Part shown: one piece after another, positions 9,158 to 54,263 of the stretch
Layout of the letters: each line of letters opens with the position of its first letter
Numbering within the stretch: position 1 is the first letter of the stretch
From: Natrinema salsiterrestre
GTDB taxonomy: Archaea > Halobacteriota > Halobacteria > Halobacteriales > Natrialbaceae
Length of the DNA: 64,000 bases
Direction: 5' to 3'
NCBI RefSeq assembly: GCF_029502005.1
Contig: NZ_JAMQOT010000004.1
Location: 248,001 to 312,000 of the forward strand
Translations under genes and position numbers: made by a program
Notes under the pieces: generated by a model
Told to the model about the DNA's origin: nothing
Seen by the model: only the letters and a program-made list of their open reading frames with translations
Database searches by the model: none

Positions 9158-9602
9158 GGATGTCGCTACGGTCGGGACAGCAAAAGTCCCACCGGACCCG
9201 TCACGCGGGAGTGACGATCCCGGTCGACCCACGGAGTGATTCTCACGAGGCTTCGAGTTAGCCTTGCGATCTGAGAGGTGCTGTCCCCTTTCTCGTGACA
9301 CGGCGCGCCCGTGAAGATGCGAGCACGGTGACAATCATCGATCGTTCGGCGTCGTTCAATACAGTATTATCGGGTAGCTAGCGAAGGCCACGACGGAAAA
9401 CGAGAGCGACTGATAACTCACGATCGGTTCCTGCAGGCCGAGTTCCGTCTTACATCGCTCTTCCCGGACGACCATTGAGAATCGTTTCAGCACCGAAACT
9501 CCGTCCTTCCCGACGGAAACGGAGCGCGAGGTCCCCCACTCCCGGCCACCACCGACCGTCAGCGTGACGGCTTTTTTGCCTCCCCGGCCGAAAGTCACCG
9601 GT
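9158..9602. other. Non-coding gap between divergent genes
   Basis: About 445 bases separate the zinc-ribbon gene and the next small gene. No coding frame with the genome's codon bias, no RNA fold and no repeat was noticed. A TATA-like GCTTTTTTGCC at 9569-9579 lies about 29 bases before the ATG at 9603. Confidence 0.5.
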
Positions 9603-9749
9603 ATGCGCGACGAAGAAGAAATCCGAGAGCAGTACGAATTCCTCAAAGAGCACCTCGAGAGCGACGAGATGCGACACGACGGCGTCGAGGAGATGTTCAC
9701 GTACTACAAGCGCGCGATCGGGTGGGTACTCGAGGAAGAGCACATCTAA
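9603..9749 (+). CDS. Small acidic helical protein (48 residues)
   Basis: The 48-residue protein starts MRDEEEIREQYEFLKEHL and ends WVLEEEHI. It is strongly acidic with a heptad-like pattern of hydrophobic residues, so it is probably a short helical hairpin or coiled coil. The ATG at 9603 is preferred because a T-rich TATA element lies about 29 bases upstream; the in-frame extension upstream is basic. Codon use matches real genes of the window. Such short proteins are common in haloarchaea, but I know no function. Confidence 0.65.
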   Translation: MRDEEEIREQYEFLKEHLESDEMRHDGVEEMFTYYKRAIGWVLEEEHI

Positions 9750-9809
9750 TCGCGCCCGAGCGTGGCGGGGTCGTTTCTCGTCGGCCACTACTCCGCACCG
9801 TGTCGTTAC

Positions 9810-9817
9810 ATTTAAGT
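9810..9817 (+). promoter_or_regulatory. TATA box of candidate small RNA
   Basis: ATTTAAGT is a good archaeal TATA box with no start codon of a plausible gene about 27 bases downstream. Instead the first base of a strong hairpin falls there. Confidence 0.5.
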
Positions 9818-9837
9818 AGTCTCCACAGCATCGTCCA

Positions 9838-9940
9838 CGTGACGCTTCGCTTGGAGGGCCGAAGCGTCAGCGGGGACCAATTCAGGGCGGCAAGCGATCG
9901 CGTGACACTTTTCCGTCACGCGATCTGCTTTCCTGTTTCG
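9838..9940 (+). ncRNA. Candidate small RNA with two perfect hairpins
   Basis: Two perfect stems lie in tandem in this gene-free stretch. TGACGCTTCG (9840-9849) pairs with CGAAGCGTCA (9860-9869) around a 10-base loop. GATCGCGTGAC (9896-9906) pairs with GTCACGCGATC (9915-9925) around an 8-base loop. A TATA box at 9810-9817 would start transcription at about 9838-9841, exactly at the first stem, and a pyrimidine-rich CTGCTTTCCTGTTTC follows the second stem as a possible terminator. I see no box C/D or ACA arrangement that would make it a guide RNA. A long + frame through this region has poor codon use and was rejected. Confidence 0.45.
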
Positions 9941-10216
9941 AAATCGCTACTCTCGTAGTGTCGACACCGCCGAACCATTATTCATATAATAAATCCCGTT
10001 AATACATCCCCCAAACATATAATAGTACCGTAATACAATTCCTGAACAGTAAACATGAACTGCTCATTATGTGTGGTTTAGCGGTCGATTCGTCACGGGG
10101 GTTATGAGTCTACCGGGCTGAAAACGAGACTGCTCACTGGTAATAGCCCCCTTTCGGTCGAAACAACCCGATAGCCTTATTAAAATTCGACAGTAAGTAA
10201 GATTGGTACTTTCCCA
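9941..10216. other. AT-rich intergenic region before padR
   Basis: Bases 9976-10070 are unusually AT-rich for this GC-rich window, with several overlapping TATA-like runs (CATATAATAAATC, ACATATAATAG). The motif GTTTACTG occurs in reverse at 10047-10054 and CGAGACTGCTCACTG at 10125-10139. A TTATTAAAATTC box about 35 bases before the padR ATG probably drives that gene. No coding frame was accepted. Confidence 0.5.
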
Positions 10217-10492
10217 ATGTACGACCTGACAGGATTTCAGCGTGACTTGCTCTACGTCATCGCTGGCGAGGACGAGCCCCACGGACTGGCGATCAAAGAG
10301 GAACTCGAGCAGTATTACGAGAAGGAGATCCACCACGGGCGACTCTATCCCAACCTCGACACCCTCGTCGACAAGGGCCTCGTCGAAAAGGGCCGGCGCG
10401 ATCGTCGAACGAACTTCTACACGCTCACCCGCCGCGGCCGCCGCGAACTCGAGGCGCGCCGCGATTGGGAGGCTCAGTACGTCGATCTGTAG
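10217..10492 (+). CDS. PadR-family transcriptional regulator
   Basis: The 91-residue protein is a compact PadR winged-helix regulator. It starts MYDLTGFQRDLLYVIAGED, continues with the PHGLAIKEELEQYYEKEI helix-turn-helix, the conserved HHGRLYPNLDTLVDKGLVEK segment and a wing with RRTNFYTLTRRGRREL. It lacks the C-terminal dimerisation arm of long PadR proteins, as is usual in haloarchaeal small forms. Its long AT-rich upstream region suggests it controls itself. The next gene, an MgtC/DUF4010 membrane protein 96 bases downstream on the same strand, is a possible target, but that is only inferred from position. Confidence 0.93.
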   Translation: MYDLTGFQRDLLYVIAGEDEPHGLAIKEELEQYYEKEIHHGRLYPNLDTLVDKGLVEKGRRDRRTNFYTLTRRGRRELEARRDWEAQYVDL

Positions 10493-41894: not shown

Positions 41895-42563
41895 TCAGTT
41901 CGACGGGATCTGCGGGGCAGCGGTCTCCTCTTCCGTCACGTTGAGTTCTGACGTGACGAGCGCGCGGTAGGCCCGGCGCAGTCGCTCGGAGAGCGCCTGA
42001 TGAGAGATGCCGAGCTCCTCGGACAGCTCCTGCATCGAGACCTCGCGGGGAATCTCGAAGTAGCCGTGATCGATCGCCGCCACCAGCGTCTCGTACTGGC
42101 GCGTCGTGAGGCCACACTGGGAATGGGTCTCCTCGGCCAGATCGAACAGCCGGACGATCGTCGGCGTGGCGTCGTTGTCGTCGAGGCGATCGTACAGCGA
42201 GCTGACGCTGTCGCGGTCCACGACGCGGACGCTGAGCAACCACTTGCCGTTCGAGGCCGAGGCGCTCAGTACGGTGCCCCCTTCCTCGAGGACGATTTCG
42301 AAGGGGTCGACGGTGTCGGGTTCGAACTGGATGTCGTACAGCCAGCGGTCCTCGTCGCTGCTGATCTGGGAGTAGGCACCGATCGAGTCGGTCTCGTCGA
42401 GGGCCGCCTCGATCTCCGACTGCGAGGGTCCCGACAGCCAGAGTCCGTGGCCGCTCGAGGCGATGACCCGTTCCATCTCGCACGTAAGCGAGGGGACCGC
42501 CTCGAACAGCTCGCCGGTTCCGGTTCCGTCGGCCGGGATCTCGATGTCTGCGATGGATGTCAT
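41895..42563 (-). CDS. Bat-type HTH-10 transcriptional regulator
   Basis: The 222-residue protein has an N-terminal bacterio-opsin-activator-type sensor region (SIADIEIPADGTGTGELFEA, then beta strands to about 150) and a C-terminal HTH-10 domain: LTTRQYETLVAAIDHGYFEI, REVSMQELSEELGISHQALS, ERLRRAYRAL. In Halobacterium the related DmsR activates DMSO-reductase genes. Here it lies just downstream of the molybdate/tungstate permease and on the same strand as the whole molybdenum-enzyme block, so it is a candidate local regulator. That link is inferred from position only. Confidence 0.9.
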   Translation of the reverse strand: MTSIADIEIPADGTGTGELFEAVPSLTCEMERVIASSGHGLWLSGPSQSEIEAALDETDSIGAYSQISSDEDRWLYDIQFEPDTVDPFEIVLEEGGTVLSASASNGKWLLSVRVVDRDSVSSLYDRLDDNDATPTIVRLFDLAEETHSQCGLTTRQYETLVAAIDHGYFEIPREVSMQELSEELGISHQALSERLRRAYRALVTSELNVTEEETAAPQIPSN

Positions 42564-42695
42564 GAGTCTCACCCGTGGATAGAACGACGATCTCCATAAT
42601 CCCACTTCCAAAGCACTTAGAACCGGGTAGCGGGACTTTCACTCGTTCTGATCGGTCGAGAGGGGGAGGATCGATGGCATCGCGGAGGCGGCAGG

Positions 42696-43553
42696 TCAGT
42701 GTCGGCGGGGCGTTCCGATCAGTAACTGCACCGCGAGGACGACGACCACTGCGATCGCGAGCAAGGCGAGTGCGATCGGGACGATCGCATCGATGCCGCT
42801 TGCGATAAACGAGACGCGGATCTGGGTCGGCATGGTTCGCGGCGAGTACGCGACCATCATCGTCGCGCCGAATTCGCCGATCGCCCGCACGAACGTGAGC
42901 ACGATGCCGGCGGCGATGGCGTTGCGTGCGAGCGGTAACGAGACCGATCGCACGGTCCGGAGCCGCCCGTACCCCAGCGTTCTGGCCGCCTCCTCGAGGC
43001 GCGGATCGACGCCGTCGAAGCCGGCGCGGGCGGTGACGACGAGAAACGGTGCCGCCACGAACGTCTGTGCGAGGACGATGCCGGCGCGACTGCCCGTCAG
43101 TGGCATCCCGAGCGCGGCGGCGGCCGCACCGATCGGCGTGTACCGGCCGACGACGGTCAACAGCATGACCCCGCCCACGATCGGCGGGACGACCAGCGGG
43201 AGCAAGACGAGGGCTTCGACCAGCCGCTTGCCGCGAAACGAGGCCCGAGAGAGGACGTACGCGAGCGGGACGCCGAAGACGGTCGCGATCGCCGTCGAGA
43301 TCGGTGCCGTCACCAGCGACGTCCCGATCGCGTCCCGAACCGTCGGATCCGCGAGTGCTGCGAGGACGTCGACATCTCGGGTTCGGGACAGAAAGATCGC
43401 GAACGGGACGACGAAGTACGCGAGCAACACCGAGCCCAGCAGTGCCGGGACGGCGAGCCCGGTCGGGAGCCACTCGAGCCCCGCGTCGAACCGGGACGCG
43501 CCCGCGTTCGTCTCCGACGGCTCGCCGTTCCGGTTCCGTTCGGCGCGACTCAC
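42696..43553 (-). CDS. Molybdate/tungstate ABC transporter permease
   Basis: The 285-residue protein has about six hydrophobic helices and the permease loop for the ATPase (EEAARTLGYGRLRTVRSVSLPLARNA with the EAA-Gly motif). The helix pattern and the LPLVVPPIVGGVMLL segment match ModB/WtpB/TupB permeases. Its start overlaps the stop of the upstream binding-protein gene (ATGA at 43550-43553), so they are co-translated. No ATP-binding subunit gene follows, which is unusual. Tungstate versus molybdate cannot be told, but neighbouring genes make molybdate or tungstate for the nearby molybdopterin enzyme likely. Confidence 0.9.
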   Translation of the reverse strand: MSRAERNRNGEPSETNAGASRFDAGLEWLPTGLAVPALLGSVLLAYFVVPFAIFLSRTRDVDVLAALADPTVRDAIGTSLVTAPISTAIATVFGVPLAYVLSRASFRGKRLVEALVLLPLVVPPIVGGVMLLTVVGRYTPIGAAAAALGMPLTGSRAGIVLAQTFVAAPFLVVTARAGFDGVDPRLEEAARTLGYGRLRTVRSVSLPLARNAIAAGIVLTFVRAIGEFGATMMVAYSPRTMPTQIRVSFIASGIDAIVPIALALLAIAVVVVLAVQLLIGTPRRH

Positions 43554-44503
43554 GGTTCGATCGCCTCCGGCGGCTCGCCGTGGAATCGGGGGAGGGAATC
43601 GTCGACGCGCAGGCCGTGTTCGACCAACAGGTCGTCGTTCTCGAGGAGGTAGTCGACGAACGCCCGTCCCGCGTCCGGATCGTCCGTGCCGCGTCGAACC
43701 GTGGCGGTGTAGATCACCGGCGATCCCTCGACCGTGTGACCGCTCTCGGTGGTGTAGCTCGCCCGCGCGTACCGGTCTGCGGATCCGGGATCACCGAAGT
43801 TGTAGGCGTCGTCGAGTGTGCGGACGGCGACGTCGCGCTCGGTAGCCATGTTGGCGTAGGCGACCGCACAGGCGCTGTTTCCGCTTTCGACGCCGGCGAG
43901 CAACCGCGGTTCGTCGGGAACGCGGTGGACCTCGTCGGCCATCGCGTCGCGGAACCCCTCGAGTCCGTGCTCGCGTTCGGCGAGTTCGAAGAGGAGGAGG
44001 GCGCGATACCCCAGCGGATCGAGGTCGGGATCGCTGATCGCGATCGCGCCGTCGTCGGCATCGGCGAAGACCTCGTACCACGGCTCGCCGTCCGCGAGCC
44101 GTCGTCCCGGTTCGGTCTCCGCGGCGTAGCCGATCACGACCTCGTTGGCCGCGAACTCGACGTCCCACCCGGCGCAGTCGGGGTAGAGCCGCTCCCGCAG
44201 GAGGTCGACGTCGGCACCGATCACGACGTCCGGATACTTCGTCCCGTCCTCGACCAGCCGCAACAGGGCGTTGGTTCCGTAGTATTCGCCCTCGTATCCC
44301 AATCCCGAGTCGGCCTCGAAGGCCGGACCGACGCCGTTCTCGAGGGCGACGGCCAGACTGCCCGCCGCGAGCACGCGAACGCTGTCCGTCTCACCGAGAC
44401 AGCCCGCGGTTCCGACCAGCCCCGCCGTGAGCCCGCCGGCCGCGGCGAGGACGCTTCGACGGCCCCTCGGAGCCGATCCGGCGCAGCCGTCGCGACTGTG
44501 CAT
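43550..44503 (-). CDS. Molybdate/tungstate-binding lipoprotein
   Basis: The 317-residue protein has a twin-arginine signal and lipobox (GRRSVLAAAGGLTAGLVGTAGC), so it is a lipid-anchored solute-binding protein outside the cell. The mature domain is of the ModA/WtpA type: VRVLAAGSLAVALENGVGPA, GTNALLRLVEDGTKYPDVVI, SDPDLDPLGYRALLLFELAE and DPDAGRAFVDYLLENDDLL. It binds oxyanions of the molybdate/tungstate kind. The ATG at 44503 is used because it places the RR motif properly. A TATA-like GTATTTG lies 27 bases upstream. Confidence 0.9.
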   Translation of the reverse strand: MHSRDGCAGSAPRGRRSVLAAAGGLTAGLVGTAGCLGETDSVRVLAAGSLAVALENGVGPAFEADSGLGYEGEYYGTNALLRLVEDGTKYPDVVIGADVDLLRERLYPDCAGWDVEFAANEVVIGYAAETEPGRRLADGEPWYEVFADADDGAIAISDPDLDPLGYRALLLFELAEREHGLEGFRDAMADEVHRVPDEPRLLAGVESGNSACAVAYANMATERDVAVRTLDDAYNFGDPGSADRYARASYTTESGHTVEGSPVIYTATVRRGTDDPDAGRAFVDYLLENDDLLVEHGLRVDDSLPRFHGEPPEAIEP

Positions 44504-44524
44504 ACGTCCCGTTGGATCTACGGC

Positions 44525-44533
44525 ACAAATACA
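44525..44533 (-). promoter_or_regulatory. TATA box of the oxyanion-binding protein gene
   Basis: TTGTATTTG on the minus strand is centred about 27 bases before the ATG at 44503. Confidence 0.45.
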
Positions 44534-44541
44534 ACTGGTTT

Positions 44542-44569
44542 CGGTTCCTATATTGTGGGAACACAACCG
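44542..44569. promoter_or_regulatory. Inverted repeats upstream of the oxyanion transporter
   Basis: CGGTT (44542-44546) pairs with AACCG (44565-44569), and inside them TTGTG-GGAA-CACAA (44553-44566) is a perfect 5-base inverted repeat. The site lies just upstream of the TATA box of the binding-protein gene, where an activator or a metal-oxyanion regulator could bind. Confidence 0.35.
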
Positions 44570-44645: not shown

Positions 44646-45194
44646 TCAACAGTCCGTTTCGTCGGTCGGCGTGCCAGCGTGAGAGAACTCGAGCCCCTCG
44701 AGCGAACGGATCGTCCCGACGAGGTCGTCGATCGAATCGTCGCCGCGTCCGATGACGGGGCCGCCGACGGCGGACGGATCTCGCTCCCCGACGAGGATCG
44801 TCGGAAGGGGAGACTGGGCGAACCCCTCCACGAGCACGGTGTCGTACCCCCGGCGTGCGAGTCGCTCGAGGCCCCTCGAGAGCGCCCGAATTTCGCGGTC
44901 GTCCGACTCGAGAAGGGCGTCCCCGTCGGGCTCGTGTGGATTTCGCTTCCCCCGCGTCGCGATGTCGAAGGTCAGTTCCGGCGTGATTCCGACGACGGTT
45001 TCGGCACCGGCGGTCCGGTGGCGGTGCGTGTCGGTCCCGGGGGTATCGATCTCGACCTCGTGGTGGATCGACTTGACGGTCGCGACGCGGCCGTCCGCGC
45101 CCAGTCGGGACACCAGTTCCTCTACGAGCGACGTTTTGCCCGAATCGCTCGGTCCGGCCACACAGACGGCGCGGAGAGTCGAATCCTGACACAT
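44646..45194 (-). CDS. mobB: Molybdopterin-guanine dinucleotide biosynthesis protein MobB
   Basis: MobB is a small GTPase-fold protein that assists the attachment of GMP to molybdopterin. The 182-residue protein has a Walker A motif (VCVAGPSDSGKTSLVEELVS), the conserved TVKSIHHEVEIDTPGTDTHRH and YDTVLVEGFAQSPLPTILVG. Two in-frame ATGs (45203 and 45194) are possible; the shorter is used. It is the last gene of the run that starts with the molybdopterin enzyme, 92 bases after the Mrp gene, and fits the need of that enzyme for bis-MGD cofactor. Confidence 0.93.
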   Translation of the reverse strand: MCQDSTLRAVCVAGPSDSGKTSLVEELVSRLGADGRVATVKSIHHEVEIDTPGTDTHRHRTAGAETVVGITPELTFDIATRGKRNPHEPDGDALLESDDREIRALSRGLERLARRGYDTVLVEGFAQSPLPTILVGERDPSAVGGPVIGRGDDSIDDLVGTIRSLEGLEFSHAGTPTDETDC

Positions 45195-45286
45195 AGATCT
45201 CATCTCGGTATCCGGTCACAAGACCCGTTCGAACGGTCGGCGAACGAGGGGAAGGGGCGGATCGCGGCTGCGTCGACGGTTCGGGA

Positions 45287-46564
45287 CTACCGCGAGACGG
45301 CCATCACCCACTCGTCCGGCCCTCGCCGGCGCACGTCGTACACTTCGAAGGCGTCACCGGTCGGTCCGTCGCGGCCGACCGCTGCGACGAGCTCCGTCGC
45401 GAGCGGCGACGGATCGTGATCGTTGATCAGGTAGAACGGCTCGCCGGGCTCGGTCGCGCGGAACTCCTCGGTGGCTTGCTCGTGGCGGATCGGCTTCGGC
45501 AGCCCGCGCAGGTCGAGCGCGTGATCGGGAACCGAGAAGTCGCCGACGTCCTCGAGGCGCTCGCGGACGGCGTCGGCGAGATCGGTCGCCTCGGCTGGCA
45601 CGTCGTCGTCGAAGTCCCGAACGCGCTCGTCGAAGGGCAGTTCGCACAGCACCGGCTGGTCGAGTTCCCGCTCGACGTCCGTGTCGGGGAAGAGGTCGTG
45701 TTCGCGACCGCACTCGCAGGTGAACCCGCGCATGTTGACGACCGTCCCGAGCAGCGGGACGCCGTTTTCCTCGAACAGCGTGGCGCTGCGCGAGGTGTCG
45801 TCCACGCTGGTCGGGTGGGGCGTACTGACCAGCACTGCGCCGTCGATCGGCAGCGTCTGCAGCGCCGTCAGGACGATATCGCCGGTCCCCGGCGGCAGGT
45901 CGACGACGAGAGTGTCGAGCTCGCCCCACGCGGTGTCCTCGAACAGCTCGCTGACGGCCTCGTGAGCCATCGCGCCGCGCCAGGCCAACGGTTCGTCGTT
46001 CGCGATGAGGCCGACGCTCATCGCCGTGAGATCGTCGGTCTCGATCGGCTCGGCGCGTCCCTCCGCGTCGGCAGACACCGGCCCCTCGAGGTCCAGCAGT
46101 TCCGGCACGTTCGGCCCGTAGAGGTCGGCGTCGAAGATGCCGACGTCCCGATCGGAATCGGCCGCCAGCGCCCTGGCGAACTGCGTCGAGACGGTCGTCT
46201 TGCCGACGCCGCCCTTGGCGCTGGCGACGGCGATCACGGTGTCGACGCCCGCCGGACCGTCGATTTCGTCGTCCGCGGCCGCATCGGGCGCGTCGCCTTC
46301 GACCGTCGCACGCTCGACGCCGGGCGTCTTCAGGACCCGCCGCCGGATCGCCTCGGTGACGTCCTCCGCGGTCGGGTCGTCGAATCCGGCGAGATCCGCG
46401 GCGATCCGAACGGCCCCCTCGTCGGCCGAGACGTCAGTGACCAGCCCGGACTCGAGCACGTCGCCGCCCAGATCCGGGTCTTCGACGTCGCGCAGGCCGT
46501 TCCGGACGCGGTCGGCGAGGTCGTCGGTCGGGACGTCCTCGGGAACGATATCGTGTTTCGCCAT
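45287..46564 (-). CDS. Mrp/NBP35-type iron-sulfur carrier ATPase fused to DUF2249
   Basis: The 425-residue protein has three parts: an N-terminal MIP18/DUF59 domain (residues 12-95), the Mrp/NBP35 ATPase domain with deviant Walker A SAKGGVGKTTVSTQ (117-124) and DTLVVDLPPGTGDIVLTAL, and a C-terminal DUF2249 domain (about 345-425, ALDLRGLPKPIRHEQATEEF, then FYLINDHDPSPLATEL). The cluster-binding site of Mrp proteins, normally CxxC, is reduced to CxC (RGFTCECGREHDLF). It is one base from the upstream gene within the molybdoenzyme run, so it may load iron-sulfur clusters onto that enzyme. Confidence 0.88.
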   Translation of the reverse strand: MAKHDIVPEDVPTDDLADRVRNGLRDVEDPDLGGDVLESGLVTDVSADEGAVRIAADLAGFDDPTAEDVTEAIRRRVLKTPGVERATVEGDAPDAAADDEIDGPAGVDTVIAVASAKGGVGKTTVSTQFARALAADSDRDVGIFDADLYGPNVPELLDLEGPVSADAEGRAEPIETDDLTAMSVGLIANDEPLAWRGAMAHEAVSELFEDTAWGELDTLVVDLPPGTGDIVLTALQTLPIDGAVLVSTPHPTSVDDTSRSATLFEENGVPLLGTVVNMRGFTCECGREHDLFPDTDVERELDQPVLCELPFDERVRDFDDDVPAEATDLADAVRERLEDVGDFSVPDHALDLRGLPKPIRHEQATEEFRATEPGEPFYLINDHDPSPLATELVAAVGRDGPTGDAFEVYDVRRRGPDEWVMAVSR

Positions 46565-46565
46565 G

Positions 46566-47231
46566 TTACCAGGCCTCGAATTCGTCGGCGTCTTCGTCGG
46601 GTTCGCGCTCGGTCATCAGCGTCCCGCCGTAGGGACGGTAGTCGAGGTCGTAGGTGTTCGCGACCGTATCCAGCGCGTCCTCCCGCTCGGCGATCGTTCC
46701 GGTATCGAACTCGAAGGCCTCGACGGCCGCGACCAACTCTTCGTCGGTCACTCGTCCCTCGGCGTAGCCCGCCGCGATGCCGTCGCGGAGGACGTCGGCG
46801 TTCCGGCGCAGCCGCGTCGCCTCGTCGAACTGCTCGCGCATGTCGTCGTCGAGCCCGCCCCGATCGAGGGGAATCCCCTCGAGCAACTCGGTCGCCCGCT
46901 CGTCGAACCCATCGGCCATCGTGAGCAGCTCGACGACCTGTCTTTTCGAGGTGAGCGACTGCCAGGCAGCACGGGCGTCTTCGGCGACGACGGCGTCGAC
47001 GGCTTCGGTCCACTCCGTCGAGCGCTCGACGTCCTCGAACGCCTGCGCGACGAACGCCCCCACGTGGTCGTCGGGGATCGTCACGCCGAGCGATTCCTCG
47101 AGAGTCGACCCCGAAGCGCTGCTATCGGTCGTACAGTCCGCGTCGTGCTCGTCGCGGTCACGGTTTGCGTTCGATTCGCCGTTCGCGCTCCGTGGCTCGT
47201 CCGTGGGTGTGCTGTCGAGTTCGTAGGTCAT
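46566..47231 (-). CDS. Helical protein of unknown function in the molybdoenzyme operon
   Basis: The 221-residue protein has a disordered polar start of about 45 residues (TPTDEPRSANGESNANRDRD) and then a helical domain (VGAFVAQAFEDVERSTEW, TSKRQVVELLTMADGFDERA, ATRLRRNADVLRDGIAAGYA). The end is acidic (TEREPDEDADEFEAW). There is no signal, helix in the membrane or metal motif. I do not recognise it. Its ATG overlaps the stop of the HEAT-repeat gene (47228-47231) and its stop is one base from the Mrp start, so it is firmly part of the operon. Confidence 0.8.
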   Translation of the reverse strand: MTYELDSTPTDEPRSANGESNANRDRDEHDADCTTDSSASGSTLEESLGVTIPDDHVGAFVAQAFEDVERSTEWTEAVDAVVAEDARAAWQSLTSKRQVVELLTMADGFDERATELLEGIPLDRGGLDDDMREQFDEATRLRRNADVLRDGIAAGYAEGRVTDEELVAAVEAFEFDTGTIAEREDALDTVANTYDLDYRPYGGTLMTEREPDEDADEFEAW

Positions 47232-48118
47232 CGTCGATCACGCTGTCCCTGAGTCAGTCCGTCGATCGAACCGGCCGGTCCCTGCCCCGGACCGGGCCCC
47301 TGCCGCTCCTGTTCCCGCCGTGATCCCGGCCCGCCGCCGGGTGCCGCGTCGTCGTCCAGTCCGGCGTCGATCTGCTCCGGGTCGACGCCGCGTGCCGTCG
47401 CGAGCGCTCGCTTCGCCGACCGCCGCACGTCGTCGCTGCGATCGTTCAGGCCGTGTCGCTCGAGGACCTCCTCGGCGCGGTCCGTCCCGAGGTCGCCGAG
47501 GCTGGTCGCTGCCTTCGCCCGGACGAACGCCTCCGGATCGCGGGCCAACACTGCGGCGAGGATCCGAACCGTCTCGCCAACGTCGTCGGCGTACTCCCGC
47601 AGGTAGTCGGCCGCGTACTCCCGAACGCCGGAGTGGGGATCGGTCTTGAGCTGTTCGATCAGCAACTCCTGTGACGCCGCGCCCGTCTTCGACAGCGCGA
47701 TGACGGCGTTGCGCCGCACCCAGCCGCTGTCGTCCTCGAGCGCGTCCCTCAGCGGCGTTTCGTTTCCGGGTTCGGCCCGCGACTGGGCGACGACCGCCTC
47801 GGCGCGGACCCACTCGTGGTCGTCGTTCAGCGCCGCCCGAATCGCGTCGCCGGCCGCGTCTCCGCCGTCAGCATCCGCGGCGAGGCCGAGCGCCTCGACT
47901 GCGAACTGCCGCACGTCCGGGGAATCATCCGCGAGCACGAGCTCGACCAGCCCCCCGATCGTCGCCGGTGTCAACCCGCCGTCGTCCGCCAGATCGATCA
48001 GTCCGAGCGCGGCGCGGCGCCGATCGCGTTCGAGATCGGCTTCGAGCCGCGCGCGGAGCGTTGCCTCGTCGTCGTCGGGTGCCCGACCGCGGGCACTTCG
48101 GTTCGCGTAGTCGGTCAT
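47228..48118 (-). CDS. HEAT-repeat protein in the molybdoenzyme operon
   Basis: The 296-residue protein is built of about six HEAT/armadillo-like repeats between residues 35 and 255, with repeated units such as SPDVRQFAVEALGLAAD, HEWVRAEAVVAQSRAE, SGWVRRNAVIALSKTG, HSGVREYAADYLREYA and EAFVRAKAATSLGDLG. Such solenoids hold protein partners. The C-terminal 40 residues are Gly/Gln/Arg-rich and disordered. No catalytic motif is seen. ATGA overlaps at both ends couple it to the gamma-subunit gene and the helical protein. It may act in assembly or scaffolding of the enzyme. Confidence 0.85.
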   Translation of the reverse strand: MTDYANRSARGRAPDDDEATLRARLEADLERDRRRAALGLIDLADDGGLTPATIGGLVELVLADDSPDVRQFAVEALGLAADADGGDAAGDAIRAALNDDHEWVRAEAVVAQSRAEPGNETPLRDALEDDSGWVRRNAVIALSKTGAASQELLIEQLKTDPHSGVREYAADYLREYADDVGETVRILAAVLARDPEAFVRAKAATSLGDLGTDRAEEVLERHGLNDRSDDVRRSAKRALATARGVDPEQIDAGLDDDAAPGGGPGSRREQERQGPGPGQGPAGSIDGLTQGQRDRR

Positions 48119-49155
48119 TCGAGTTTCCTCCAGTAGCTGACGAGCCACGCGGCGACCGTCGCGAGGACGATCGCCGCGGGCCAGTTCGTCGCGGCATCGA
48201 CGAGCCAGCTCGCGGAGTCGGTTGCGCTGGCCACGATACCGCTGTCGGCGCTTTCGGCCTCGCTGCCGTCGCCGTTCCCGCCGGCGTCGGCCTTCGCGAG
48301 CGTTCCGTCCTCCGTATCGAGCGTGAGGAACTCGTAGGACAGCGACTTCTGTCCGTTCGCCTCGTCGGCGCTTCCGTTCCAGATCGCGTACGTGAGGTAC
48401 ATCCGCTCGCCGTCCTCGAACGACGCATCGTACTCGCCGCTCGCGTCGTGCTCGCGCTGGAACACCACGGCCCAGCCGTCGTCGGTCCGCTCGCCGTTCG
48501 CCGCGACGGGCTGGGTCTCGGCGTTCGTCAGCGAGCCGTAGCCCATCGCGTAGTAGTTCTGCCCGTACCGAGTATACGAGGACTGGGAGAGCGGGTTCCC
48601 CGCCGCCTGTCCCGGCTTCGTCCGGTTGTCCGGATGCGGATAGGTGTACATGTCGCCACCCGGGTCCGACTCCGAGAACTGCCAGCTCGAGCGCCAGTAC
48701 CAGATGTTGACCGGATTTCCGTTCGCACCCATGGTGATCGGCGGCTCGTCCCCGCTCCGGAGCATGACCGCCGCGGCGTCGCTGTAGGCGGTCGGCTCGT
48801 TGATCTCCGTGTCCATCGTCGGGTCCTCCCACTCCATGCGGAAGGCGACGTGCGTGTCGTTCGTCACCGACTGAACCGTCACGTTATCGACGCTGCCGCC
48901 GCCATAGGGTGGAATCATCTGCTGATTCTGGAGCGAAACGGTCTCGGTCGGCGCGTCCTCCCACGCCTCGGCGTCCGGCTCCGTCGGCACTTCGTTGACC
49001 GACAGGAGCGGCAGCGGACCGCCCGTGAGGACGGCGACCGCCAGCACCTGCACGACCATCACGAGACACAAGACGATTGCGGCCAGCTTCGTGGCCGTGC
49101 CCGCGGCGGCCCGGTCGATCGAGAGCGGCCCGATCTCGATCGGCTCCGAACTCAC
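48115..49155 (-). CDS. Heme-b gamma subunit of a type II molybdoenzyme (EbdC/DdhC-like)
   Basis: The 346-residue protein looks like the heme-b subunit of the type II DMSO-reductase family (ethylbenzene dehydrogenase domain). It has one hydrophobic helix near the N-terminus (KLAAIVLCLVMVVQVLAVAVL) and one at the C-terminus (WPAAIVLATVAAWLVSYW). The outer domain has VQSVTNDTHVAFRMEWEDPT, AAAVMLRSGDEPP, NIWYWRSSWQF and YLTYAIWNGSADEANGQKS. The axial Met/Lys ligands of this family cannot be assigned with certainty. Electrons would pass from the membrane pool to this heme. Confidence 0.82.
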   Translation of the reverse strand: MSSEPIEIGPLSIDRAAAGTATKLAAIVLCLVMVVQVLAVAVLTGGPLPLLSVNEVPTEPDAEAWEDAPTETVSLQNQQMIPPYGGGSVDNVTVQSVTNDTHVAFRMEWEDPTMDTEINEPTAYSDAAAVMLRSGDEPPITMGANGNPVNIWYWRSSWQFSESDPGGDMYTYPHPDNRTKPGQAAGNPLSQSSYTRYGQNYYAMGYGSLTNAETQPVAANGERTDDGWAVVFQREHDASGEYDASFEDGERMYLTYAIWNGSADEANGQKSLSYEFLTLDTEDGTLAKADAGGNGDGSEAESADSGIVASATDSASWLVDAATNWPAAIVLATVAAWLVSYWRKLE

Positions 49156-49856
49156 GGCGTCTCACCCCCGTTCGCCGCGTCCGCCGAGACGCTGGGGTCC
49201 GGGTGCTTTCCGTTGTCGTAGGTCACCAGCTCCTCGACGAGATCCGCCGCGGCCTCGTAGGCCGGTTCGTCCGTTGCCCGGCGAAGGTCGTGTGCTAGCG
49301 CCGGCACGAACTCGACGAGGTGATCGGCGAGCACCGTCGCCTCGGCCTGCCCGACGCGCTCTGCGGCCGCCGGCTCGCCCGACTCGAGCGCGACGGCCCG
49401 CTGGCCGGCCAGCACCTGCGCCAGCTCGAGTTCGGCGGCGACGTGGTCCTGCCGTTCCGCGAAGTCGTCGCTGGGCTCGAGGCCGAACTCCTCCATCAGG
49501 CCGACGACGGTCGCGATCCGGCGCTGCTCGCTGCTGATCTCGTCGCGGGTCGTGTAGTGGGCCTCGTAGGGGATCACGGCGTAGGTCCCGTCGTCGCTGG
49601 GGAGGCCGAACAGCTCGTTGTAAGCCGTCTGGAGCTCCTCGAGCGGCGTTTCCTCGAGGGCCTCGAGCAGCGCGGTCGCCTCCTCGGAGACGGTGAGTTG
49701 CTCGGCGGCCCGTTCGATCCCCTCGCGGGCCTCGGGATCGAGCAGTTCGCGAACGGTGTCCTCGGTCGGGTAGGTAAACGCCGCGGCGGCGGCGCAGTAC
49801 AGCGTGGCCCGCGCGGCGTGGTACTCGGGATCGGGAGTGGTGTGTGTCGGTGTCAT
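49152..49856 (-). CDS. TorD/DmsD/NarJ-type assembly chaperone
   Basis: The 234-residue helical protein has the features of molybdoenzyme-specific chaperones: ARATLYCAAAAAFTYPTEDT near the start, LEELQTAYNELFGLPSDDGTYAVIPYEAHY (the conserved LxxxYxxLF and PYE region), and QDHVAAELELAQVLAGQRAV. These bind the Tat signal of the catalytic subunit until the cofactor is in place. It lies between the beta and gamma genes, as in ser/ddh operons (alpha-beta-delta-gamma). ATGA overlap with the gamma gene. Confidence 0.88.
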   Translation of the reverse strand: MTPTHTTPDPEYHAARATLYCAAAAAFTYPTEDTVRELLDPEAREGIERAAEQLTVSEEATALLEALEETPLEELQTAYNELFGLPSDDGTYAVIPYEAHYTTRDEISSEQRRIATVVGLMEEFGLEPSDDFAERQDHVAAELELAQVLAGQRAVALESGEPAAAERVGQAEATVLADHLVEFVPALAHDLRRATDEPAYEAAADLVEELVTYDNGKHPDPSVSADAANGGETP

Positions 49857-49863
49857 CGGTCTA

Positions 49864-51045
49864 TTAGGGCTGATTGGTCCACATCTCGCCCTCCCGGACC
49901 TCCATCTCTTCCTCGAAGGGGATGTCGACGACCTTGTTCCCCTTGCGGTCCCACCCCTTCACGCGGTTCTCTTTGACGGTGTAGGTCTCGATGAGGCGGG
50001 TGGTCGCGCCGAACAGCTGGAGGATCCCGAGGGTGTGGTGGCTCGGGTTTCGGACGCGGTCCTGGACGATCTTGATCGATTCCTCGAAGGTGCTGCCGGG
50101 CCACTCGTTTCGTTTGTCCTCGGTGTTCGGCGTGAACATCTGGGTGAGGAACTCCGGCGGCACGTGGTAGGGCGGCATATAGAAGACCTGCGGCCGCGTC
50201 CCGAACTGCGGGTACAGCGGCAGCGCGATCTTCTCGTCGCTCTTGGCGAGGTAGTTCACCGGACTCCGACCGGCCGCCGCCGACTTGTTCCCGCCCGGGT
50301 GGCCGGCGTCGGGACCGCGATTGATGTTGCCGTGCAGACGCGTCTTCCCGATACACGAGGAGACGCACCGCGGGACGTTGCCCTCCTCGATGCGCGGGAA
50401 GCAGCCGACCGGCTTCTCCGAGACGCCCGTCTCGGGGTTGTACATCGGCTTGTGGTACGGACAGGACTTCACACACTTCCGGTAGCCCCGGCACCGCTCC
50501 TGATCGAGCAGGACGATGCCGTCCTCCTCGCGCTTGTAGATCGCCTTCCGCGGGCACGCCGCGAGGCAGGCGGGGTTCTTGCAGTGGTTACAGAGCCGCG
50601 GCAGGTAGAACTGCCACATGTCGTGGTACTCGTCGTTCTCGAGGTCGCTCTCGACGACGTCGCCGGTGGGGTACTCGCCGTGGACCTGGTCGTCGCCCAG
50701 CGCGGGATACTCCCACTCCTCTTTCTGTGCGACGTAGCCCTTGACTGTCTCCCCGTCGTCGGCGGCCTCGAAGATGGTCTCGTCGTCCTCGAGATCGTCG
50801 AGCAGCCGCATGTCCCAGCCCATCGGATAGCCGCCGTAGGGCTCGGTCTCGACGTTCATCCACCACATGTACTCCTCGCCCTTCCCGCTCGTCCAGGTGG
50901 ACTTGCAGGCGAACGAACAGGTATTGCAGTTGATACATCGGTTGATGTTGATGATCATCCCCCAGTGCCAGTCGCGCTCCTCCTCGCGGTGTTCGTAGGG
51001 GTAGCTGTGCTCGCGCCCGAGTTGTGGATTGTAGGTTTCCGGCAT
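49864..51045 (-). CDS. Iron-sulfur beta subunit of a type II molybdoenzyme
   Basis: The 393-residue protein is a NarH/DdhB/SerB-like electron-transfer subunit. Four cysteine groups are seen: CINCNTCSFACKSTW near residue 36, CNHCKNPACLAACPRKAI, CRGYRKCVKSCPYHKP, and GCFPRIEEGNVPRCVSSCIG. In the third group Tyr replaces the cysteine as Trp does in NarH, suggesting one [3Fe-4S] cluster beside three [4Fe-4S] clusters. There is no signal peptide, so it would be co-exported with the alpha subunit. Its ATG overlaps the alpha stop at base 51045. Confidence 0.93.
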   Translation of the reverse strand: MPETYNPQLGREHSYPYEHREEERDWHWGMIININRCINCNTCSFACKSTWTSGKGEEYMWWMNVETEPYGGYPMGWDMRLLDDLEDDETIFEAADDGETVKGYVAQKEEWEYPALGDDQVHGEYPTGDVVESDLENDEYHDMWQFYLPRLCNHCKNPACLAACPRKAIYKREEDGIVLLDQERCRGYRKCVKSCPYHKPMYNPETGVSEKPVGCFPRIEEGNVPRCVSSCIGKTRLHGNINRGPDAGHPGGNKSAAAGRSPVNYLAKSDEKIALPLYPQFGTRPQVFYMPPYHVPPEFLTQMFTPNTEDKRNEWPGSTFEESIKIVQDRVRNPSHHTLGILQLFGATTRLIETYTVKENRVKGWDRKGNKVVDIPFEEEMEVREGEMWTNQP

Positions 51046-54000
51046 CAGCTGTCACCTCCCTGCAGCGAACCGCTCACGTAGTCCTGGAATAGCTCGTCCT
51101 TCCGCGCGTCGCCGGGCCACCAGTCCGCCTCCTCGTACTTCTCGACTTCCACGAGGTCGTCCCGGTTCGTGCCGGTCGGCGCCCAGACGGTCTCCTCGTA
51201 GCCGTGCTCGAGTTCGGCCCCTTTCCAGACGATATCGTCCTCGACCTCCTCGGAGATGTTCGGATCGCCGAAGACGGCCTTGTGGACGAGGTCGTCGGTC
51301 TCCTGTGCGGGGTCGAGCCAGATGTTCGTCGTGACGTTGTACCCCTTGACGCTGTCCTCGTTCTCCTCGTCGTCCGGGAAGTGCTGGGGCCACCAGCCGT
51401 GCCAGATGGTCAGCTGGCCCATATCGCCCGCCGAGCGCGGCCGCTGGCGTTCGCTGATCATCACGCGCACGACGAGGTCGCCGCGCTTGCCGCTGATCCG
51501 GACGTAGTCGCCGTTCTCGACGTCGATGTCCGCGGCGTCTTCGGGGTGCATCTCGACGAAGGCCTCGCCCAGCGGCGGCGTCTCCTCCGTCTCGCCCTCC
51601 CCTTGCGGGAACGAGAAGTCGTCGACCAGCCGCTCGGTCCCCTCGGGATCCGCGTTCGTCGACCCGAAGTCCCGCGACGCCCAGATCAGGTTCCAGTCCG
51701 TCATCCCCCACGAGGAGTGCGTGCGGTACTTCGGGTGGGGCGTGTTGAAGTAGAACTGATACTCCTCGTCGTGATACAGCGGGTTCTCCTCGTCTTTCGC
51801 CTCGTCCCACTTCTTGTTCACCCCGTAGGGCGTCCCCTCCGGGCTCTCGATGTGGTCCAGATCGGCCCGGCCGAGCTCGAGGAAGCGGTCTTCCTCCTTG
51901 TGGAACTCCATGCGGCCGGTCTTGGTGTAGAACGGCCGGTCCTCGTTGATCTGGGAGTAGAAGGGAATCCGCGGATACGTCTTCAGCTGGAGGCGTTCCG
52001 GGCCGTCCTCGATGTCCTCGACGTCGATGTCGCGGGTCGTCATCCCCGCGTCCAGCGTCTGCTGGATGTAGTCGCGGACGTCCTTGTCGTCGTCGAGGAA
52101 CTTGTCGAAGTACGCCCGGTAGGAGTCGACGTTGCGCTCTTCGGGCGGAATCTTCTCGTCGAGTTTCTCGGCGACGAGCGCGACCGCCTCCCCGTCCTGT
52201 TTCGTGTCGTAGAGCGAGTCCATGACCCCGTGATCCATGTGGATGAACGGGTTCTCCGGCCCGACGGTGATGTCGGGGTAGTCACACTCGAGCCAGGAGG
52301 GGACCGGGAGCACGATGTCCGCGTGGCGCGCGGAGTAGGTCATGTGCATGTCCGAGACGATCGAGAGCTCGTTGCTCGTGTCGGGGTGTTTGACGAAGTT
52401 CTCGATGACGTGCTCCTGATGTTTGGTCTGGTTCAGGAGGTTGCAGTTCATCGTCCACAGGATCGTCGGCTTGGACATCGTGTACGACTCGGCGTTCGTC
52501 GGCACCACCGGCTCCTCGGCGTCGCCCTGTGGGACGAGGTCGAGATCGCGGTCGAAGTCGCCGCGGATCTCGTGGGCGTCGAGCTGCTCGCCCCCGAAGA
52601 ACGCGAACGCGTAGCCCGGATACATCCCGTGGGCGGAGTTCCCGTCGGGGTTGACGTATTCGGGGTAGCCGTCGAGCAACTCGATCTTGTACTGGCCGGA
52701 GTAGTTGTAGTAGCCGGCCCCTCGCTCGCCGATGTTGCCGAGCATCGACTGGACGAAGAAGATCGTCCGCTGGAGCGAGTCGTTGGAGTGGAACCAGTGG
52801 TTGATCCCCTCGCCCGTGAACCACTGGCCCTTGTCGGCCGCGGCGAACTCCCGGGCGGTCGTCCGGAGCGCGTCGGCCGGGATCGTCGTGATCTCCTCGA
52901 CCGTCTCCGGATCGTAGTTTTCCGTGATGTTCGCCTTCTGCCGGGTGAAGTCGGTATGAACGCCGACCGACTCGCCGTCGGCCAGTTCGATCTCGGAATC
53001 GACCTCGAGTCGGGGCGTGACGGCCATCTCGTCGCCCACTTCTTCGCGGGTGACTGGGACGGGATCGCCGTTCTCGTCGAGGGCGACGAAATCGCCCCAG
53101 TCGTTTTCTTCGTGCCGTTCTTTGCTGTCTTCCGCGGGCGGTTCGTGGTCCGGGAACACCTCGTGGGCGCGGAGGTACTTCCCGTTATCCTGCCGGATCA
53201 ACAGCGGCAGGGTCGTGAACTTCCGCATGAACGCCGCGTCGTAGAGTTCCTCGTCGATGATGACGTTGGCGATGCCCAGCGCGAACGCGGGGTCGCTCCC
53301 GGGGCGGACCGGAAGCCAGCGGTCGCACTTCTGGACCGTCGGCGAGTAATCGGGGTAGACGCCGACCATCTTCCCGCCGCGCTCGCGGGTCTCCTGGAGG
53401 AAGTGGTTGTCCGCGAGCTTGTTGTGAATCAGGTTCTTCCCCTGGATGATCGTGTAGTCGGCGGCCCGCCAGGCCGACGCGTCGGCGTCGCTGGTCTGAT
53501 AGCCCGTCGTGATGACGTGGCCCGGCGGCAGATCGGCGTACCAGTCGTACTCGGTCCACTCGCAGCCGCCGAAAATCGAGGCCAGTCGTCGTCCGGCCCC
53601 GTGCCGGGTGATCAGTCCGTCCGACTTGATGGCGTTGAAAATGTGGAACCGCTTCTCGTCTTCCAGGCTCGCCATCTTCTCGGCGATCAGGTCGATGGCC
53701 TCGTCCCACGAGACGCGCTCGAACTCGTCCTCGCCGCGGCCCTCGGGGTTCGGGTCGTCGGGACTCCACCCCTTGCGGACCATGGGATACTTGATCCGGC
53801 TCGGCTCGAACGTTCGGCGGTGGAGGGTCAGTCCCTTCATGCAGCCCCGGGGATTCCAGTGGCGGGTAACGCCCGCTTCCTCGTATCCGCCGGGGCTCCC
53901 CGGACCGGGACTCCCCTCCTCTTCGTGGTAGATCTGTTCGGCGCGGATCGGTACGCCGTTTTTCATGTAGAAGTTCAGCGCACACGACTGCGTACAGTTG

Positions 54001-54206
54001 GGGTGACAAACGGTCCAGTCCACCCTGTCGTACGAGTAGATGTCGTGATAGACCTGTTCCCAGTCCCGGTTCGGATAGGATTTGAGCGGGTTGTCGACCT
54101 GCGTGATCGAGTCGACGGTTTGCGTCGCTCCCCACGCGGAGCCGATGAGGGACCCGACAGCCCCCGTCCCGGCTGCCGCCAGGAAATCGCGTCGCGAGAG
54201 ACTCAT
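51045..54206 (-). CDS. Type II DMSO-reductase-family catalytic subunit (NarG/DdhA/SerA-like)
   Basis: The 1053-residue protein has a Tat signal (LSRRDFLAAAGTGAVGSLIG) and is therefore exported. The FS0 iron-sulfur site is CHPNCTQSC (Cys67, Cys71, Cys75) with Cys122 in RGCMKG. The molybdenum-site motif YDWYADLPPGH (221-230) matches NarG, whose Asp ligand is in this motif, placing it in the type II group. GVYPDYSPTVQKCDRWLPVRPG and the C-terminal GDYVRISGKRGDL cofactor region are present. The substrate cannot be deduced: DMSO/TMAO, nitrate, chlorate or selenate are all known in this group. A Shine-Dalgarno site precedes the ATG at 54206. Confidence 0.93.
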   Translation of the reverse strand: MSLSRRDFLAAAGTGAVGSLIGSAWGATQTVDSITQVDNPLKSYPNRDWEQVYHDIYSYDRVDWTVCHPNCTQSCALNFYMKNGVPIRAEQIYHEEEGSPGPGSPGGYEEAGVTRHWNPRGCMKGLTLHRRTFEPSRIKYPMVRKGWSPDDPNPEGRGEDEFERVSWDEAIDLIAEKMASLEDEKRFHIFNAIKSDGLITRHGAGRRLASIFGGCEWTEYDWYADLPPGHVITTGYQTSDADASAWRAADYTIIQGKNLIHNKLADNHFLQETRERGGKMVGVYPDYSPTVQKCDRWLPVRPGSDPAFALGIANVIIDEELYDAAFMRKFTTLPLLIRQDNGKYLRAHEVFPDHEPPAEDSKERHEENDWGDFVALDENGDPVPVTREEVGDEMAVTPRLEVDSEIELADGESVGVHTDFTRQKANITENYDPETVEEITTIPADALRTTAREFAAADKGQWFTGEGINHWFHSNDSLQRTIFFVQSMLGNIGERGAGYYNYSGQYKIELLDGYPEYVNPDGNSAHGMYPGYAFAFFGGEQLDAHEIRGDFDRDLDLVPQGDAEEPVVPTNAESYTMSKPTILWTMNCNLLNQTKHQEHVIENFVKHPDTSNELSIVSDMHMTYSARHADIVLPVPSWLECDYPDITVGPENPFIHMDHGVMDSLYDTKQDGEAVALVAEKLDEKIPPEERNVDSYRAYFDKFLDDDKDVRDYIQQTLDAGMTTRDIDVEDIEDGPERLQLKTYPRIPFYSQINEDRPFYTKTGRMEFHKEEDRFLELGRADLDHIESPEGTPYGVNKKWDEAKDEENPLYHDEEYQFYFNTPHPKYRTHSSWGMTDWNLIWASRDFGSTNADPEGTERLVDDFSFPQGEGETEETPPLGEAFVEMHPEDAADIDVENGDYVRISGKRGDLVVRVMISERQRPRSAGDMGQLTIWHGWWPQHFPDDEENEDSVKGYNVTTNIWLDPAQETDDLVHKAVFGDPNISEEVEDDIVWKGAELEHGYEETVWAPTGTNRDDLVEVEKYEEADWWPGDARKDELFQDYVSGSLQGGDS

Positions 54207-54212
54207 CGCCGA

Positions 54213-54219
54213 CCACCTC
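54213..54219 (-). promoter_or_regulatory. Shine-Dalgarno site of the catalytic subunit gene
   Basis: GAGGTGG on the minus strand lies 6 bases before the ATG at 54206. Together with a TATA-like box 65 bases upstream it indicates a leadered mRNA. Confidence 0.5.
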
Positions 54220-54263
54220 GTGTGGCGGAGCGTTTCGGTAGCATACACGACGGGGTTGCCACT

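Follow-up and report, generated by a model that had tools for sequence, protein, structure and literature searches.

Within the window, i.e. the whole 64,000-nucleotide stretch of Natrinema salsiterrestre DNA analysed here, the minus strand encodes a molybdoenzyme operon in the order alpha, beta, TorD-like chaperone, EB_dh-type gamma, HEAT, 221-aa protein and Mrp-DUF2249. The alpha subunit (51045-54248) of this type II DMSO-reductase-family enzyme bears a Tat-type signal (SRRDFL) and is followed by a beta (iron-sulfur) subunit of the NarH/DMSO type II family (49864-51045), a TorD/NarJ-family chaperone (49152-49856) and a gamma subunit of the ethylbenzene-dehydrogenase type (EB_dh, 48115-49155), all three recognized by profile matches. 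A HEAT-repeat protein (47228-48118), whose start was set at an ATG overlapping the gamma stop, precedes a 221-aa protein (46566-47231) which matches no Pfam or NCBIfam family at E 0.01 and is conserved between the HEAT and Mrp genes of type-1 operons, i.e. loci with a window-type alpha (a relative of the alpha at 51045-54248). The series ends with an Mrp/NBP35-family ATPase fused to DUF2249 (45287-46564), identified by translation and Pfam. From alpha to Mrp, each gene is separated from the next by 1-7 bases or shares 1-4 bases with it. After Mrp, on the same strand and with gaps of about 80 bases, profile matches identify MobB (molybdopterin-guanine dinucleotide biosynthesis, 44646-45203), then a solute-binding protein (SBP_bac_11, 43550-44566) whose gene overlaps that of an ABC permease (BPD_transp_1, 42696-43553) and whose substrate, from this context, is probably molybdate or tungstate. 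Directly downstream of the transporter genes, an HTH_10/BAT-type gene (41895-42611) is a possible regulator of the molybdoenzyme operon. Compared with solved structures, the window alpha best matches nitrite oxidoreductase NxrA (7b04; 432.7 bits, perchlorate reductase scoring 260.7), and its score of 439 with the NCBIfam type II model falls below the cut-off of 985, so that the substrate of the enzyme is not readable from its sequence.

The first-pass annotation had read 45287-46564 as an Mrp ATPase fused to DUF2249, and both the coordinates and the fusion proved right. The 425-aa translation of this ORF indeed contains three Pfam domains over their cut-offs: FeS_assembly_P (FSCA/DUF59, PF01883) at residues 18-88 (37.8 bits vs 23.5), ParA/NUBPL (PF10609) at residues 107-322 (222.8 bits vs 27.1) and, in answer to the profile search then advised, DUF2249 (PF10006) at residues 350-423 (56.5 bits vs 29.5, E 2.5e-15). 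Both ALDLRGLPKPIRHEQ and NDHDPSPL fall inside the DUF2249 region, which has no cysteine in 83 residues. DUF971 was absent from the eight Pfam families matched at E 0.01, and the NCBIfam equivalog cut-offs for MrpORP (187.3 bits against 450) and ApbC (174.2 against 348) were missed. Walker A, switch I and switch II are all intact; the Walker A of the window Mrp is of the deviant type, SAKGGVGKTT, where unfused Mrp read SGKGGVGKST. The expected CxxC motif reads FTCECGREHDLF in the window, where CxC is CEC and corresponds to C283/C285, and alignment with Haloarcula and Halosimplex relatives reading FTCPTCGD places a one-residue gap opposite CPTC, as the first-pass annotation had recognized. Judged by this signature, the window Mrp departs from the typical Mrp carrier, although it belongs to the fold family. 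Its gene is under purifying selection, with dN/dS of 0.17-0.21 vs three orthologues and of 0.18-0.25 for the DUF2249 part alone, the N-terminal domain changing faster than the rest.

The first-pass annotation had advised looking for a second, standard Mrp elsewhere in the genome. Two such genes were found, C22:178800 (CPDC, in CPDCG) and C22:363871 (CPSC, in CPSCG), and the profile search detected DUF2249 on neither. Other DUF2249 matches occur in the source genome: a 385-aa frame on C4 (L230, 7897-9051) has four tandem matches, one of them under the cut-off, near genes which by eye resemble a CODH-type molybdenum hydroxylase set, and a region on C22 (L229, about 9405-10259, i.e. C22:369404-370258) has three, the second unfused Mrp being about 5 kb and a nirK match about 9 kb away.

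The search for fused relatives covered 391 genomes of the class and scored four Mrp candidates per genome, so that counts are lower bounds. From these, 100 regions were taken and joined by 12 loci from named genomes; the 100 were chosen as full-length matches and are thus fused by selection, and further regions were chosen to fill gaps and as contrasts. Motif states were read in 128 fused and 38 unfused Mrp ORFs; of these 166, 138 have CxxC, 19 CxC and nine no motif cysteine. Every unfused Mrp sampled (38/38) has CxxC, 29 of them (L160-L188) coming from the genus of the window and 28 of those being the same housekeeping gene. The fused proteins divide into 100 CxxC, 19 CxC and nine cysteine-free, L192 and L193 (CPTC by reading) standing outside both these 128 and the tree. 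The shortened motif is thus not general among haloarchaeal Mrp, so that, with DUF2249 confirmed, neither observation which would have refuted the first-pass annotation was made. A profile built from the DUF2249 subfamily of the window matched 128/128 fused and 0/38 unfused proteins. Among 38 fused representatives, Pfam's own DUF2249 model misses the domain in 10 at E 0.01, and the FSCA N-terminal domain (PF01883) was found in 34.

The tree was computed on 139 rows (128 fused and 11 unfused Mrp, 27 of the 38 unfused being omitted) after removal of the motif columns, by a quick search without bootstrap whose output warns of long branches. It separates fused from unfused proteins with support 100 and requires three motif changes in the fused family. 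CxC arose once in the clade of the window (n=16) and once in a nar-type trio (L068, L071, L072), and the motif cysteines were lost once, in nine type-3 fused Mrp. A single event for CxC was rejected under the model used (all-CxC clade, p-AU 0.0009). Sequencing or alignment error was also ruled out, CxC being present in 19 proteins from 18 genomes and two clades; in the window Mrp itself, the same CxC in 15 other clade members argues against sequencing error. CxC is a mark of two subclades and not of the DUF2249 fusion itself. P-loop and switch motifs are intact in the CxC and CxxC classes. As for the cysteine-free clade, the beta subunits beside it have 15 cysteines each in 9/9 type-3 loci, which rules out a target devoid of clusters where Mrp has no cysteines.

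Operon context was analysed in 109 loci holding 110 fused ORFs, after exclusion of the duplicates L073, L077 and L083. An alpha or beta match was present in the locus for 102/110: 29 fused ORFs accompany a window-type alpha and 73 another type II enzyme, including one (L156_238) that was assigned to the nar-type alpha in its stretch although its own window-type alpha lies at the other end of the contig. The remaining eight have neither, four of their loci (L104, L107, L136, L159) ending at a contig edge and four not. Where inspected, loci of the second group belong to the haloarchaeal nar kind, the alphas examined reading STH(S/G)VNCTGSC, and by eye a cytochrome-b-like frame precedes alpha in 4/5 of the nar-type loci inspected. 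The Haloferax larsenii nar record, for instance, runs from a Rieske protein, cytochrome b, a short hypothetical, alpha, beta and EB_dh-type gamma to a TorD-like chaperone, a hypothetical, HEAT and a P-loop NTPase (the Mrp), then a short gene annotated as molybdopterin-dependent oxidoreductase and a molybdenum cofactor guanylyltransferase; two DUF2249 genes and nosZ come later in the record. At type-3 loci, alpha frames are mostly of about 1200 aa. The fused Mrp family is thus one clade, apart from ordinary Mrp, found beside three kinds of type II molybdoenzyme and kept in operons of many genera.

The alphas differ at the FS0 region, which has one histidine ligand in bacterial NarG. Window-type alphas (window, L018, L026, L067, L192) read CHPNCTQSC, a cysteine replacing the histidine of nar-type HSVNCTGSC, and type-3 alphas such as L198 read C-x3-D-x3-C; these residues are putative FS0 ligands. 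Unfused CxxC Mrp were also observed next to weak matches to a beta-like Fe-S protein and to an alpha of another, distant molybdopterin type (L219, L222, L224), and Mrp recruitment may thus be wider than type II enzymes.

As for co-occurrence with the enzyme, at least 35 of the 391 genomes have a window-type alpha (two candidates per genome scored), two of them with split genes, and a fused Mrp accompanies it in 33/35, in the same locus in 31 and at the other end of the contig in two (G088, a plasmid circular by record, and G294, whose circularity is deduced). It is absent from two window-type loci (L190, L191), whose genomes have a fused Mrp in nar-type loci (L135 and L102), and from one type-3 locus (L217). 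It is likewise absent from the stretches of nar-type loci L208-L216, nine loci which, being chosen as survey-negative, give no rate. Such loci indicate that the fused Mrp is not needed everywhere, or that another Mrp stands in. In L208-L216, alpha and beta are present, mostly with gamma, chaperone and HEAT genes.

Within the genus (29 genomes, every candidate scored), window-type Mrp (220-225 bits) was found in 10/29 genomes and window-type alpha in the same ten, as a two-piece gene in G034 and G091; an eleventh genome (G397) has a stop-containing fragment of this alpha and no window-type Mrp. These broken alphas may reflect enzyme decay in some members of the genus, or assembly errors. Type-3 Mrp (171-172 bits) and type-3 alpha are confined to the same three genomes. 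Such counts do not represent independent events. A Cu nitrite reductase over the cut-off was detected in 9/10 genus genomes with window-type alpha (the tenth, G164, having partial matches only) and in 8/19 others, a weak association. On a Halobaculum plasmid, the window-type operon is followed by a gene annotated as cbb3-type oxidase, perhaps a NO reductase, and by nirK, neighbours which suggest nitrogen-oxide respiration. The first-pass proposal of a specialised paralogue dedicated to the operon is thus upheld, by the tree split and by the co-occurrence in both genus and class.

Predicted folds gave further indications. The full-length AlphaFold2 model of the window Mrp (pLDDT 73, pTM 0.58) best matches ApbC (Z 24.1, rmsd 4.0, 237 aligned), followed by ATPase-type HypB (Z 21.8) and Cfd1 (Z 21.4), all these matches spanning residues 99-343 or less. 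For DUF2249 modelled alone (pLDDT 86), the best match is TsuB (Z 9.5, rmsd 2.3, 74 aligned), before a SirA-like protein (Z 8.3) and TusA (Z 7.8), with HP1264, not known as a TusA-family member (Z 7.6), and Smr domains (Z 6.7) as close runners-up and a best Foldseek E of only 2.8e-3. In this model, DUF2249 adopts a TusA/SirA-like two-layer alpha/beta fold without the TusA cysteine. Since it has no cysteine, it is not a TusA-type sulfur carrier, and docking is the putative role left to it.

Altogether, we consider it rather likely that the window Mrp acts in the cytoplasm as an ATP-driven factor, dedicated to its operon, in the maturation of the type II molybdoenzyme encoded just upstream. Its P-loop module, with all nucleotide-binding motifs preserved, would act as a nucleotide switch, next to an N-terminal FSCA/DUF59 module of the kind used in Fe-S protein maturation. 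Through DUF2249, the ATPase would probably bind the apo-enzyme or its TorD/NarJ chaperone, and this docking would let cofactors be inserted before Tat export. We infer the target, the docking role and the timing from the operon, the predicted fold and distant systems. Docking is deduced from the fold match of a predicted model and from a distant TusA-family protein of Pseudomonas, PA1006, for which interaction signals with NarJ and NarH are described (PMC3568144) and which is reportedly required for nitrate reductase activity. A relative of the window Mrp in the nar operon of Haloferax mediterranei is described as induced in denitrification (log2FC 3.60; PMC11218638).

Within this maturation role, Fe-S carriage is one of two live mechanisms. 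A classical carrier would hold a bridging [4Fe-4S] cluster on the CxC of a dimer and hand it to beta or to FS0 of alpha, a mechanism we regard as a serious candidate, at somewhat less than even chances. Membership of the Mrp/NBP35 family and a cluster-rich target enzyme speak for it, and so does the conservation of both C283 and C285 in 16/16 members of the clade, which suggests that these cysteines probably bind something and makes cluster carriage plausible. However, published work on other Mrp proteins presents CXXC both as the site of the bridging cluster and as indispensable to Fe-S biogenesis in vivo (PMC6345978). CxC has two separate origins here, and the motif region of the model is too weak for its geometry to be read (a monomer, with pLDDT <50 at residues 286-288). 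C307 is a possible extra ligand, found in 13/19 CxC proteins (13/16 of the window's clade) and in 0/100 CxxC proteins, but its presence follows lineage: the position is A or S in three members of the clade and A in 3/3 of the second CxC group, and as a compensating third ligand, absent from six of the 19 CxC proteins, it is only a lead. Nine type-3 fused Mrp have no motif cysteine though their betas keep 15 cysteines each, so that cluster carriage on the motif is not indispensable family-wide. The first-pass interpretation is supported in part, its cluster carrier for the beta subunit being a candidate role.

The other live mechanism is a cysteine-independent insertion ATPase similar to Thermococcus HypB, in which ATP would time the delivery of a cofactor (the molybdenum cofactor) with a partner protein, CxC being structural or zinc-binding; we hold it to be possible, if rather doubtful. 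One of the closest folds is indeed that of ATPase-type HypB, which was deposited as an Mrp homolog and whose aligned sequence has no cysteine opposite the motif; a fused clade is also devoid of motif cysteines. A MobB gene adjoins the window Mrp, the Mrp gene of Haloferax larsenii precedes molybdopterin-type and guanylyltransferase genes, and a TusA-like domain is present. By contrast, the invariance of both cysteines in the clade of the window and the Fe-S maturation family of the N-terminal domain do not favor this mechanism, and neither does the cysteine-free clade itself, which keeps Walker A and switch II with switch I altered from DADxYGPN to DANVYAPD, and which may thus have lost more than a cluster. 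Extended to the whole family, the same evidence permits a tentative reading, to which we lend limited credence: fused Mrp would have left the Fe-S carrier mechanism, the motif having undergone two shortenings and one loss with retention of the ATPase module, of DUF2249 and of operon linkage, and the function kept would be an ATP-driven, TusA-like-docked insertion or assembly step without a bridging cluster, by analogy with ATPase-type HypB in hydrogenase maturation.

A regulatory role, in which DUF2249 would sense nitrate or nitrogen oxides and the ATPase relay the signal, appears improbable. Thermus DUF2249 proteins DrpA and DrpB have been proposed as nitrate sensors (PMC6282519), but the DrpA histidines are reported in another Haloferax DUF2249 protein only and not in the Mrp fusion (PMC11218638). 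Moreover, the window Mrp gene lies among maturation genes, in a region which also has an HTH_10/BAT-type regulator gene, and Thermus mutants without DrpA and DrpB are described as showing little enzyme activity despite wild-type-like enzyme production (PMC6282519), a phenotype which fits maturation too. Finally, a decaying paralogue heading for loss, to which the altered motif in three lineages and the faster N-terminal domain might point, is hardly credible in view of the low dN/dS, of P-loop and switch motifs which both the CxC and the CxxC class have kept intact, and of retention in operons of many genera.

Among known systems, Ind1/NUBPL, a single Mrp module, resembles the window Mrp in that this Mrp-family factor serves the assembly of a single respiratory complex (complex I). 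Its CxxC is reported to be important for function (PMC6196649). HCF101 (FSCA-Mrp-DUF971), the targets of which are described as different from those of Ind1 (PMC7980591), likewise combines FSCA, Mrp ATPase and a small C-terminal domain, but this domain is DUF971 instead of DUF2249 and CxxC is kept. MrpORP similarly joins Mrp to a second domain, which is however a Di-Nase domain, and its CXXC is described as binding a cluster (PMC6345978). ATPase-type HypB of Thermococcus kodakarensis, an Mrp/MinD-family ATPase listed with the nickel chaperones that help [NiFe]-hydrogenase to mature (PMC7055735), is also devoted to enzyme maturation; its chain of 248 residues is too short to accommodate FSCA or DUF2249, and HypB serves [NiFe]-hydrogenase and nickel with a motif devoid of cysteine, whereas the window Mrp keeps two cysteines and belongs to a molybdoenzyme operon. 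TusA, SirA and TsuB share the fold of the DUF2249 model, but their persulfide cysteine is absent from the window domain; PA1006, although linked to nitrate reductases, similarly differs from a DUF2249 without sulfur-carrying cysteine.

The closest case described is E6P09_17415 of Haloferax mediterranei, a DUF2249-containing, iron-sulfur carrier-like P-loop NTPase with the same fusion, located in the denitrification-induced nar operon (PMC11218638). By its published description, with which the comparison was made and which, in its accessible part, is silent on the cysteine motif, it sits with the nar type and the window Mrp with the window-type enzyme; as it is in print, the fusion and its nar context are not new. 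The 2008 account of the Haloferax nar operon, in its accessible part, stops at narJ (PMC2483277), and the accessible parts of PMC8305020 and PMC7331816 contain nothing on the window gene or enzyme. Among the matches listed in our literature search, which covered few subscription papers, we found no account of the spread of the fusion over three kinds of type II molybdoenzyme, of the repeated motif change in fused Mrp, or of the TusA-like fold of DUF2249 in this setting.

From a mechanistic point of view, the fused Mrp points to a missing step in the way archaeal respiratory enzymes of the nitrate-reductase type mature. It also provides a concrete hypothesis for the domain of unknown function DUF2249, that of a cysteine-free TusA-like docking module. 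As its metal-binding motif was twice shortened and once lost among relatives, the fused Mrp may have ceased to function as a classical cluster carrier. The family offers a natural series, CxxC, CxC and no cysteine, each state found beside its own target enzyme, and with this series one can directly test whether every Mrp protein depends on a bridging cluster for its action.
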